Shown: positions 34,305 to 36,886 of the stretch, piece by piece
How the letters are laid out: the number at the start of each line of letters is the position of its first letter
How positions within the stretch are numbered: position 1 is the first letter of the stretch
Origin: Flavobacterium aciduliphilum
Lineage (GTDB): Bacteria; Bacteroidota; Bacteroidia; Flavobacteriales; Flavobacteriaceae
Assembly (NCBI RefSeq): GCF_003268855.1
Contig: NZ_QLSZ01000005.1
Span: 124,001 to 188,000 of the forward strand
Length of the DNA: 64,000 nucleotides
Reading direction: 5' to 3'
Notes under the pieces: model-generated
The model's input: the letters and a program-made list of their open reading frames with translations, nothing else
Database searches by the model: none
What the model was told of the DNA's origin: nothing
Program-made: the position numbers and the translations under genes

Positions 34305-35057
34305 ATGAAAAAGAAGTTTTCACTAGAAATAAAAACGCCTTGTCACGAGAATTTTAACAATATGATTTCGAATGCCAATGGTTCGTTTTGCAATTCATGT
34401 GCGAAAAACGTAATTGATTTAAGTACAAAAACCAATCGCGAAGTAGCACAATTTATTGCCGAAGCTAAGGACAAAAACATCTGTGTGAGATTAAATGTTT
34501 CCCAATTAGAACAAACTTTTGAATATGAAACCCATCCAAAAAACAACAATTTTAAATATGCAGTTGCAGTTGCAGCATCAATTTTAGTAACTTCCAATAG
34601 TGTTGCTCAAGACAACAAACAACCTTTTACTACGGTGCAAACCTGTGAAGCAAAACCGCCAAAACACCTACTAGGGAAAGTTGCGATTCAACAACAAAAA
34701 ACGAAGGTAGTTACTGTAAAAGGATACGTTTTAGACAAAAAAACCAACAAACCCATTTCGGCAGAAAACTATCCAAACTTATCTATTTATGCCTACGGCG
34801 CTGCGAAAAGTACTTCAATCGATCCAAAAACTGGAGCCTATTCGCTAGATGTTGAGCTCCATGAAAATACCAAAATCATTACGATATACATTAGTAATAA
34901 TGATTTTCGTTATTCTAAAGAATTTACGATAAATCCGAAAGAAAAAAACAAAATACTACCCATTTTAGTAGATCCAGAAAAAGAATTCCAAGCACTCAAA
35001 ATAATGGGCGGCATGGGTGTGAATTATAGAACCAACAAAAAAAACAATCCCTCTTAA
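34305..35057 (+). CDS. membrane protein with N-terminal Cys-rich domain and carboxypeptidase-regulatory-like C-domain
   Basis: 250 aa. Residues 1-65 form a small cytosolic domain with the pattern PCHENF, FCNSCAKNVIDL and NICVRL. This resembles a Bacteroidetes domain (PCHExW, FCxxCxKxVxDF, CGRF) that I suspect binds a metal or iron-sulfur centre. A membrane helix follows at about 84-100 (YAVAVAASILVTSNSVAQ). Residues 138-225 look like a carboxypeptidase D regulatory-like beta domain (VTVKGYVLDKKTNKPIS, GAYSLDVEL). It is 11 bp before the DUF4139 gene, so the two probably act together in the envelope. Function unknown. Confidence 0.7.
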   Translation: MKKKFSLEIKTPCHENFNNMISNANGSFCNSCAKNVIDLSTKTNREVAQFIAEAKDKNICVRLNVSQLEQTFEYETHPKNNNFKYAVAVAASILVTSNSVAQDNKQPFTTVQTCEAKPPKHLLGKVAIQQQKTKVVTVKGYVLDKKTNKPISAENYPNLSIYAYGAAKSTSIDPKTGAYSLDVELHENTKIITIYISNNDFRYSKEFTINPKEKNKILPILVDPEKEFQALKIMGGMGVNYRTNKKNNPS

Positions 35058-35068
35058 TTTAGTATTTT

Positions 35069-36886
35069 ATGAAAAAGATTTTCCTTGCTTTTCTAGTTTC
35101 GGCTGTGGCCTTAGCACAAAAACCAATTTTTACATCGGCTAAAGTCAAAGCGGCAACGGTGTATTTCAATGCAGCCGAATTGCAGCAAACTACTTCGGTC
35201 AATCTTCCTGTGGGAACGAGCGAAATTGTGATTAAAAATGTCGCCGATTATTTGAATGAAAACACAGTTCAAATTGGCGCGCCATCTTCAGTTACCGTGT
35301 TGTCGGTGCAGTTTACGCAGAATTACATGTCAGAATACGAAATTGACGAAAGCAATCCTGCTATTAAAAAAGTGCGCGATAGCATAACGAGAGTGCAAAA
35401 AGAAATCAACAAAGTGCAAATTGAGAAGGTTTCCAATAGTAAAACTACCGAATTGTTAGACAAAAATCAGATGGTTGCGGGAGCCAATACTGGGTTGAAT
35501 GTAACCGAATTGATAAAATTAGCGGATTATTACAAAATCAAACGAACAGAATTGAGTACTACCTATCTTGTTTTAGAAGAAAAAGAGACTCTTTTAAACA
35601 AGAAGCTACAAGCCTTAAACGAAAAATTAGCCGTCAATACTCAAAAAGAAGAAAAAACTTCTAAAGGAAAATTAGTCCTTCAAGTCATGAACGAAGTAGC
35701 CGGAAACGTGAATTTGGATATCAATTACATTACCAACACAGCCTCATGGAATCCGTTTTATGATTTGAGAGTTGACAGTGTGAAAGATCCCATCAACATG
35801 ATGTACAAAGCACAAGTAACACAAAATTCGGGCATCGATTGGAAGAAGGTAAAACTTACCTTATCCAGCGGCAATCCAAATCAGAATAATCAAGCCCCTT
35901 TGTTGAGTTCTTGGTTTTTGAGGTATGGAAATTTATACAAAGCCCATGAGGAGTTGTACGATAGAAAAAATGTGATTCAATCATTAACAGGAAAAGTTAC
36001 CGGATTGCAAATAGAACCTTCACAGGGAATCAAAAAAGAAACAAGAATTCAATTGCGAGGCAGCAGAACAATAACAGACGATAATCAATCATTAGTAGTT
36101 ATAGACAATCAAATTTCAACTGCCGAAGTCATGAAACAATTACCGCAAGAGTCAATAAAATCAGTCAATGTGCTTAAAGGTGATCAAGCAGCGGCATTAT
36201 ACGGAGATCAAGGTGCCCATGGTGTAATTATAGTAACAACTAAACAAATGGATGACTACACTTCCATCAACGAGAACCAACTCAACGTTTCTTTCGATAT
36301 AGATATTCCGTATGATATTTTATCCAATGGAAAAGCACATTCCGTAGCCTTAAAAGAAATTAAATTACCTGCTACGTACAAATATTATGCAGCGCCACGA
36401 GTAGATAAAGAAGCCTTTTTATTAGCAGAAATTAATGAGTATTCAAAATACAATTTGTTGCCTGGAGAAGCCAACATTATCTTTGAAGGATTGTATGTAG
36501 GTAAAACGAGCATCAACCCTAATCAAACTGCCGATACCTTAAACTTAAGCATGGGACGCGATAAAAAAATTGTGGTTAAACGTGAAAAAGTAGCCGATAA
36601 ATCGGGAACTCGATTCTTATCTTCTTATAAAGAACAAACGTTTACGTACGATTTAACCATCAGAAACAATAAAAAAGAAGAAGTACAAATGCTATTGAAA
36701 GACCAATATCCGTTGAGCACGGACAAAGACATCACGATAGAAGTATTAGAAGACGGAAAAGCCAAAGTAAACACTGAAACAGGCATCATGACTTGGGATT
36801 TAAAACTTCCTCCAAACGAAACAAAAAAAATCAGAATCAGTTATAAAGTGAAATACCCTAAGGATAAAGTGATTGAGAATTTATAA
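35069..36886 (+). CDS. DUF4139 (mucoidy inhibitor MuiA-like) protein with SusC-plug-like insert
   Basis: 605 aa with signal peptide MKKIFLAFLVSAVALAQ. Residues 20-120 match the DUF4140 N-terminal domain (VYFNAAELQQTTSVNLPVGTSEIVIKN), followed by a coiled coil (about 95-200) and a DUF4139 beta domain (about 205-605: NTASWNPFYDLRVDS, VTQNSGIDWKKVKLTLSSGNP, FTYDLTIRNNKKEEV). Between the two DUF4139 halves, residues about 301-393 look like a SusC/RagA-type TonB-receptor plug (SLTGKVTGLQIEPSQG, IQLRGSRTI, SLVVIDNQIS, IKSVNVLKGDQAAALYG, GVIIVTTK). No barrel follows. Envelope or periplasmic protein of unknown function, translationally close to the upstream Cys-rich protein. Confidence 0.85.
   Translation: MKKIFLAFLVSAVALAQKPIFTSAKVKAATVYFNAAELQQTTSVNLPVGTSEIVIKNVADYLNENTVQIGAPSSVTVLSVQFTQNYMSEYEIDESNPAIKKVRDSITRVQKEINKVQIEKVSNSKTTELLDKNQMVAGANTGLNVTELIKLADYYKIKRTELSTTYLVLEEKETLLNKKLQALNEKLAVNTQKEEKTSKGKLVLQVMNEVAGNVNLDINYITNTASWNPFYDLRVDSVKDPINMMYKAQVTQNSGIDWKKVKLTLSSGNPNQNNQAPLLSSWFLRYGNLYKAHEELYDRKNVIQSLTGKVTGLQIEPSQGIKKETRIQLRGSRTITDDNQSLVVIDNQISTAEVMKQLPQESIKSVNVLKGDQAAALYGDQGAHGVIIVTTKQMDDYTSINENQLNVSFDIDIPYDILSNGKAHSVALKEIKLPATYKYYAAPRVDKEAFLLAEINEYSKYNLLPGEANIIFEGLYVGKTSINPNQTADTLNLSMGRDKKIVVKREKVADKSGTRFLSSYKEQTFTYDLTIRNNKKEEVQMLLKDQYPLSTDKDITIEVLEDGKAKVNTETGIMTWDLKLPPNETKKIRISYKVKYPKDKVIENL

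Follow-up and report, generated by a model that had tools for sequence, protein, structure and literature searches.

Results

A SusC-type plug within the DUF4139 domain of a MuiA-family protein

The window, that is, the whole stretch of 64,000 nucleotides that was analyzed, carries a gene for a 605-aa protein in which a SusC-type plug interrupts a DUF4139 domain, and a smaller open reading frame lies directly before it:

34305..35057, + strand: 250-aa open reading frame, 11 bases upstream of the DUF4139 gene (open reading frame list)
35069..36886, + strand: DUF4140-DUF4139 (MuiA-family) protein with plug insert, 605 aa (open reading frame list, Pfam, NCBIfam)
35153..35455, + strand: DUF4140, residues 29-129 (Pfam)
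35357..35653, + strand: predicted long helices, residues 97-136 and 145-195 (AlphaFold2 model)
35714..35914, + strand: first part of DUF4139, residues 216-282 (Pfam; strands in the AlphaFold2 model)
35915..35968, + strand: linker on the N-side of the insert, residues 283-300, pLDDT mostly below 50, TonB box not found (AlphaFold2, loop survey)
35969..36247, + strand: SusC-type plug, residues 301-393 (Pfam, NCBIfam, profile search, structure comparison, alignment)
36254..36862, + strand: second part of DUF4139, residues 396-598 (Pfam, AlphaFold2 model)

Residues 1-17 of the 605-aa protein resemble a signal peptide, as judged by eye without a predictor. Pfam placed DUF4140 at residues 29-129 (E 1.5e-17) and DUF4139 at residues 216-598 (E 1.4e-62), both over the cut-off and in the order of the MuiA family, and the NCBIfam model of that family, TIGR02231, scored 250.5 bits (E 3.1e-74) against a curated cut-off of 112.6, which places the protein in the family. 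The domain by which SusC/RagA plugs are recognized, Plug (PF07715), was found at residues 300-386 (E 9.7e-8; 32.9 bits against a cut-off of 23.9). A sequence-only reading of this DNA had described plug hallmarks in order at residues 301-393, set within the second domain of a MuiA-like protein without a barrel, and the profile searches bear this out: the motifs VTGLQI (310-315), IQLRGS (327-332), VVIDNQI (343-349), SVNVLKGDQAAALYG (365-379) and GVIIVTTK (385-392) follow one another in that order, Pfam and NCBIfam each place a plug match there, and the DUF4139 match encloses the Plug match. The SusC/RagA model TIGR04056 aligned to residues 299-400 only (E 5.3e-26), with 91 bits against a full-length cut-off of 368 and over positions 111-213 of 981, and no C-terminal outer-membrane beta-barrel was found in the 605 residues by Pfam or by TIGR04056, which matches in its plug part only. 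Likewise, the NTE (PF13715) had no match in the protein by Pfam or in its loop by the loop survey, and no TonB box was found before the plug in the loop, where the profile of SusC N-termini matched from 122 to 218 only, the TonB box consensus lying at approximately 87-97 by our reading of that profile. The protein is a member of the MuiA family and not a SusC. We know of no established mechanism for DUF4139/MuiA proteins.

An AlphaFold2 model of the protein, built with 50 relatives (mean pLDDT 76.9, pTM 0.50), was confident over most of the scaffold, with pLDDT below 50 at residues 273-282, 284-300, 316-324, 330-332 and 398-404; within the insert, ten-residue means were 48-54 over residues 301-340 and 69-79 over residues 341-390. 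The scaffold strands stop at residue 266 and restart at residue 408, indicating that the insert occupies a loop, and the plug together with the low-confidence linkers that flank it falls within this one loop, which answers the earlier question of whether the boundaries of the insert coincide with a loop. When the plug was modelled alone, only its second half was confident and the first half was poor. SusC, RagA and further TonB-dependent transporters made up almost all of the best Foldseek matches of this model, none of which reached E 0.001 (top match 1.6e-3), with an rmsd of 1.7 over 54 columns to RagA (6slj), and the maximum VIA-align Z of 4.2 (BT1763, 60 residues, rmsd 3.0, 40% identity) is weak taken alone. 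A profile of 25 inserts, that of the window among them, matched solved SusC/RagA chains with E values down to 1e-26, and within the same genome the nearest plug, encoded in a 1087-aa open frame on a different contig (G000:C15), shows 64% identity to residues 299-394. Since the insert profile matches SusC/RagA chains and this identity is to a plug in a SusC-sized frame of its own genome, the plug likeness is not due to chance; structure prediction agrees that the insert resembles SusC/RagA plugs, more weakly by predicted fold than by sequence. The genome holds 19 plug matches at E <= 0.01, among which the insert of the window lies in the shortest open frame (607 aa, compared with at least 647 aa elsewhere). 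A fold search with the whole protein gave no match at E <= 0.001, and the 50 matches listed were weak adaptin-type and other proteins with no plug among them. No solved relative of DUF4139 was listed by sequence, all 23 rows listed lying on or across the insert and consisting of SusC/RagA chains plus weak ubiquitin rows.

The same loop holds different SusC pieces across Bacteroidota

A survey of the genus gave a match at E <= 1e-20 in 77 of 150 genomes, some of them through the SusC plug alone, and a plug was present in 5 of the 38 genus MuiA-family proteins examined, most of the plug-free proteins being 530-560 aa in length. Short SusC-like pieces were found in the same loop of many relatives in the genus, such as LQEVVVMGYG (TonB box) and LQGRVAGVQ (plug start), and four distant relatives (L035, L037-L039) carried a CarboxypepD-type NTE with a TonB box in the loop. 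DUF4139 was detected at E <= 1e-8 in 36 of 118 genomes of the phylum survey and at E <= 1e-15 in 166 of 247 genomes of the class survey, and both showed the same loop pattern as the genus. Among the named relatives, the loop contains a plug in Flavobacterium swingsii, psychrophilum, branchiophilum, difficile, limnosediminis, terrigena, stagni and others, and also in Chitinophagaceae, for example in Ferruginibacter and Taibaiella; Pfam detected the Plug domain in 31 of 51 aligned proteins, a plug-rich set chosen by hand.

Loops were scored against a profile of 36 SusC N-termini with a threshold of 8 bits, and shuffled loops, of which 0.08-0.26% reached this threshold, served as the control. It was reached by 23/38 genus loops and 63/80 loops of named relatives, two sets taken best match first so that their frequencies are biased, as well as by 13/30 phylum loops and 17/126 class loops. 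The named set comprises the best 80 of 356 and yielded its 80 loops from 78 of the 80 loci, two loci giving two loops each; the phylum set is 30 of the 38 matches listed; the class set combines 26 search loci with 100 further listed rows, the gene G304 being counted twice and L150 giving no protein above 440 aa; and the sets overlap, the protein of the window being both L001 and L056. The class loops were a plain linker in 101 of 126 cases and held an NTE with a TonB box in 15, while this combination was seen in 7 of the 30 phylum loops and a TonB box without NTE in others. Across Bacteroidota the loop therefore holds a plug, a TonB box, an NTE with a TonB box, scraps, or a linker only, the TonB box and scrap classes being assigned by profile score or simple patterns, and a number of relatives have a TonB box in this loop, unlike the protein of the window. 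DUF4139 proteins with and without the insert were thus both found, many relatives being plug-free, and together with the SusC/RagA matches this excludes the case that the earlier reading had named as fatal to itself, namely a segment integral to the fold in all homologues and without likeness to a plug.

On a quick tree of 81 proteins (the window protein and the named relatives, with the loop left out and with some long branches), plug presence changed at least 15 times, a few short loops such as L236 and L264 being scored as half-plug, and eight of the changes are forced by well-supported branches. These changes, together with the mixture of SusC pieces, indicate that the loop often gains and loses such pieces.

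Several further features of these loops were observed. Many plugs of the Chitinophagaceae and related loops L275-L290 have VVNG or IVNG, SusC usually having VVDG, and in some of them, for example L289 and L286, a TonB box lies inside a shortened plug, as if pieces had been rearranged. Adjoining pairs of DUF4139 genes occur at L040, L273, L282 and L048, the first three having a plug in one copy and a scrap or linker in the other. At L054 (G132:C192), the DUF4139 relative extends over two adjoining open reading frames (436 and 218 aa), possibly because the gene is broken or through a sequencing error.

The insert follows the plug of a core SusC gene beside rnhB

We compared 16 inserts with 52 transporter plugs from their 16 genomes, a pool gathered from 14 genomes through similarity to the insert of the window, with further plugs for three genomes, and so not every plug of each genome. 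A plug of the insert's own genome ranked first seven times where 0.99 was expected, a count matched by none of 10,000 permutations. The matching SusC gene had the rnhB pattern on 14 of the 16 stretches examined, and most stretches presumably have the order lysS - lipB - rnhB - SusC - SusD, the genes being named by their protein sequences; on most of them the protein of this core SusC begins with MRSKFKW. For the main test, 23 plug-bearing MuiA proteins were each paired with the core SusC from their own genome, the test genomes being Flavobacterium-type ones for which both a plug insert and a core SusC were available, and the Chitinophagaceae copies and L060 being excluded. Of the 23 core SusC genes used, 22 had the rnhB pattern on their stretch, and for L394, L398 and L400, where the pattern search missed the plug, it was cut out separately.

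The core plug of the same genome was the best of 23 for 11 inserts (one tie), compared with 1.02 expected and reached by 0 of 20,000 permutations, its rank having a median of 2 and a mean of 4.5. With the pool widened to 33 core plugs by adding ten, it still came first for 10 of the 23 inserts (one tie), and against the core plug of the nearest scaffold relative it won 16 times and lost 6. Insert similarity was correlated with core-plug similarity when scaffold similarity was held constant (partial Mantel r 0.70, P 2e-4, 22 genomes), and the correlation of scaffold with insert similarity was r 0.11. A typing of plugs as A or B, set by hand, gave a Fisher P of 0.006 over 22 genomes with kinship ignored, and on the tree it yielded three independent pairs on well-supported branches, a number that gives a test little power. 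The own core plug was last of 23 for the L226 insert, and for that of L212 it was 15th of 23 and 23rd of 33. At the level of sequence, the Flavobacterium inserts follow the plug encoded by a single gene of their genome, the core SusC next to rnhB, with some exceptions. The plug-bearing DUF4139 protein and the matching importer are therefore probably linked.

The plug types of the rnhB-linked core SusC themselves differ strongly (L051:3926-7153; L390-L396, L398-L402, L404; L405-L409, L411-L416, L418-L423), with contrasting types such as ALVVIDNAIS and DPLYVIDGFPS at what seems to be one syntenic locus, and they differ even among genomes with close MuiA scaffolds.

For each pair of genomes, we counted the sites at which both inserts agree in residue with the core plug of their respective genome while the two genomes differ (matched), and those with the reverse sharing (crossed); similar numbers of both are expected if the insert left SusC before the genomes split and evolved freely. 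The 253 genome pairs contained 2431 matched and 214 crossed sites, with 222 pairs leaning to matched, 15 to crossed and 16 tied, and the difference of 2217 was above all 500 permutations (sd 314, maximum 976). Ten independent pairs, chosen by hand so that no branch of the scaffold tree was used twice, with L214/L224 and L225/L271 resting on weakly supported forks, gave 77 matched and 9 crossed sites, nine leaning to matched and one tied. Matched sites were spread over the whole plug. A single ancient capture followed by plain vertical descent is insufficient to explain these data, as the similarity of the inserts follows the core SusC and not the scaffold. In a control SusC paralogue from 11 of these genomes, picked by hand via a plug motif, there were 49 matched and 83 crossed sites (P 0.91), compared with 501 and 60 for the core SusC in the same 11 genomes (P 0.001), and a genome-wide likeness of all SusC plugs is thus unsupported by this control.

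The clearest switch is seen between L223 and L213, whose inserts are of two types that fit the two types of their resident core SusC (16 matched and 0 crossed sites), and their scaffolds differ by dN 0.029 and dS 1.0; given this scaffold dS, the switch of type need not have been quick. Among other pairs, L213/L279 had 0 matched and 1 crossed sites, L271/L213 had 1 and 3, and L215/L216 had 6 and 2.

Probable old copying and present constraint

Of 46 rows, just two share a one-residue insertion, those of the L220 insert and of the core SusC in its genome, and this, together with the switches of many residues between nearly identical scaffolds, points to copying. None of the 23 pairs of insert and own core plug had a dS below approximately 1, and identical residues used the same codon in 45.4% of cases with the own core compared with 45.0% with other cores, so that these pairs carry no DNA trace of recent copying in dS or codon sharing. 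The copying is therefore old in the genomes seen, and recent gene conversion as the sole cause is ruled out by the high dS and the absence of excess codon sharing.

Two close pairs allowed the rates in the insert, core plug and scaffold to be compared. In L213/L279, dN and dS were 0.20 and 0.89 for the insert, 0.19 and 0.80 for the core plug, and 0.020 and 0.75 for the scaffold; in L215/L216 the corresponding values were 0.25 and 0.43, 0.39 and 1.01, and 0.032 and 0.41. Because the dS of the insert is close to that of the scaffold in both, the insert was inherited there. Its dN is approximately 8-10 times the scaffold value and similar to or lower than the core plug value. The dN/dS of the insert is 0.22 and 0.57, compared with 0.24 and 0.39 for the core plug, indicating that the insert is constrained in the range of a working plug. 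In addition, 9 positions are invariant across the 23 inserts, and the reading frame and the plug hallmarks are kept. As judged by these substitution rates, the insert is kept by purifying selection in the same range as the transporter's own plug.

Discussion

We propose that an exported MuiA-family protein has, in its DUF4139 domain, one loop that tolerates insertions, and that pieces of the SusC N-terminus (NTE, TonB box, plug) would have entered this loop repeatedly in Bacteroidota. In the window protein and a set of Flavobacterium relatives, the source of the copied plug would be the rnhB-linked core SusC gene of the same genome, and the insert may have been replaced anew in some lineages when the core SusC changed its plug type, the DNA event being deduced from the present sequences. 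The copied plug may serve as an allele-matched contact module through which a periplasmic protein is recruited to the core SusCD/TonB machinery for import, or it may instead stand in for the plug there. Taken jointly, the tolerant loop, the copying and re-copying from the core SusC and the retention as a SusC/TonB contact module form an explanation that we consider reasonably probable. The origin of the plug from the core SusC is well supported. Its function as a link to the SusC/TonB import system is what we infer. Excerpts of PMC7782687 report that in BT1763 the TonB box mutants grow as poorly as a SusD deletion, that an NTE deletion gives no growth in 24 h, and that the barrel lacks plug density when the lid is closed. 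A periplasmic protein with such parts whose plug fits that of a single resident SusC most plausibly belongs with that import system, and plug matching may in turn reflect physical contact. The earlier suggestion that the plug had been reused as an interaction module fits the apparent purifying selection and the matching to one resident SusC, both of which bear on it indirectly.

The loop could alternatively be merely permissive, with SusC pieces entering by recombination and decaying without function and the core SusC matching because it is the usual donor. Scraps of many sizes and in mixed order, the many gains or losses of the plug on the tree and the prevalence of a bare linker in the class would all follow from such drift, but the inserts retain their frame, hallmarks and invariant positions, and the two close pairs with unsaturated dS show an insert that is both inherited and constrained, which makes this a rather unlikely account. 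Coevolution without copying, in which the insert and the core plug face the same third partner and change in parallel residue by residue, would be compatible with matched sites across the whole plug, with the lack of extra codon sharing and with L215/L216, where the inserts are vertical by dS and yet lean to matched sites. However, the L213/L223 switch changes many residues on nearly the same scaffold protein, although the scaffold dS is 1.0, and the unique insertion is common to the L220 insert and its own core SusC, so that we regard parallel change as distinctly improbable.

A different possibility is that an ancestral NTE with a TonB box, with or without a plug, bound TonB as a tether or decoy, and that the plug-only form in Flavobacterium is a leftover. 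The NTE and TonB box loops of the class and phylum sets, and the loops elsewhere with a TonB box without NTE, speak for it, and excerpts of PMC7782687 describe the SusC TonB box as required for import in BT1763; an excerpt of PMC12204202 reports that an NTE-type domain is implicated in the interaction between TBDT and TonB. Against this, neither the survey rules nor inspection by eye revealed a TonB box in the window protein or in 21 of the 22 other Flavobacterium copies of the test set, and in these copies the plug is nevertheless kept and tracks the core SusC, making a leftover tether an unlikely origin. Because no TonB box was found in it, the window protein is itself unlikely to bind TonB, and the TonB-like partner suggested earlier finds no support for this copy. 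Within the preferred reading of a matched contact module, one can imagine the DUF4139 protein acting in trans, its plug docking in, or competing for, the SusC barrel or the factors that meet an ejected plug, and thereby gating or guarding one importer. We hold this action in trans to be a doubtful, tentative idea; if it were true, the VWA-YfbK and alpha-2-macroglobulin proteins with a similar plug described below would be further members of such a plug-matched set.

The window protein shares its scaffold and domain order with the MuiA family, DUF4140-DUF4139 (TIGR02231, PF13600, PF13598), and differs by the plug in the DUF4139 loop, which in many relatives contains a linker or different SusC pieces. 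With the SusC/RagA transporters (TIGR04056; BT1763, RagA), it has the plug sequence in common and also the fold over the half that was modelled confidently; unlike them it has no barrel, NTE or TonB box, and its scaffold is different. Similar plugs without a barrel also occur in VWA-YfbK proteins with CarbopepD_reg_2 and Plug (L046 and L044 by Pfam, L435 by similarity) and, as a SusC N-terminal module again with CarbopepD_reg_2 and Plug, in L053, by Pfam an alpha-2-macroglobulin protein; unlike the window protein, these keep the NTE, and their module lies outside DUF4139. Among the matches listed, a clear plug-bearing VWA-YfbK copy was present in one of the 23 genomes. For four such barrel-less proteins, four cases only, the plug of the own SusC ranked 1, 2 and 2 of 33 and, for a Taibaiella protein, 1 of 34, with G048 and G512 taken as one genome for L046 and a tie for L434; so small a number makes this a lead only. 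Plug modules outside transporters thus exist, and the DUF4139 host and the tracking of a resident importer are the new part; as far as titles and the first parts of abstracts of open-licence PMC articles tell, no report of either was found.

The VWA-YfbK proteins with NTE and plug lie at L046:2072-4384, L044:2454-4661 and L435, and in several other Flavobacterium genomes, for example G204, G490, G493, G500 and G097, the VWA-YfbK match extends over the NTE and the later part and skips the intervening plug. Very long open frames of 2176, 2163 and 1985 aa with a SusC-type plug were seen at L053:2699-9229, L434 and L353, respectively.

A plug copy that follows the type of one importer names a candidate partner, the rnhB-linked core SusCD, from sequence alone, and hints that proteins other than TonB may also interact with the side of SusC that faces the periplasm. 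The nearly identical scaffolds that carry different plug types, each fitting a different type of resident SusC, amount to a natural experiment.

As to the gene upstream of the DUF4139 gene, a conserved operon was considered and rejected, as a relative of the 250-aa open reading frame was present in 6 of 80 related loci, some of these with little upstream DNA. The 250-aa product had no Pfam match above the cut-off; cysteines lie close to its N-terminus, and inspection by eye suggests a carboxypeptidase-regulatory-like stretch.
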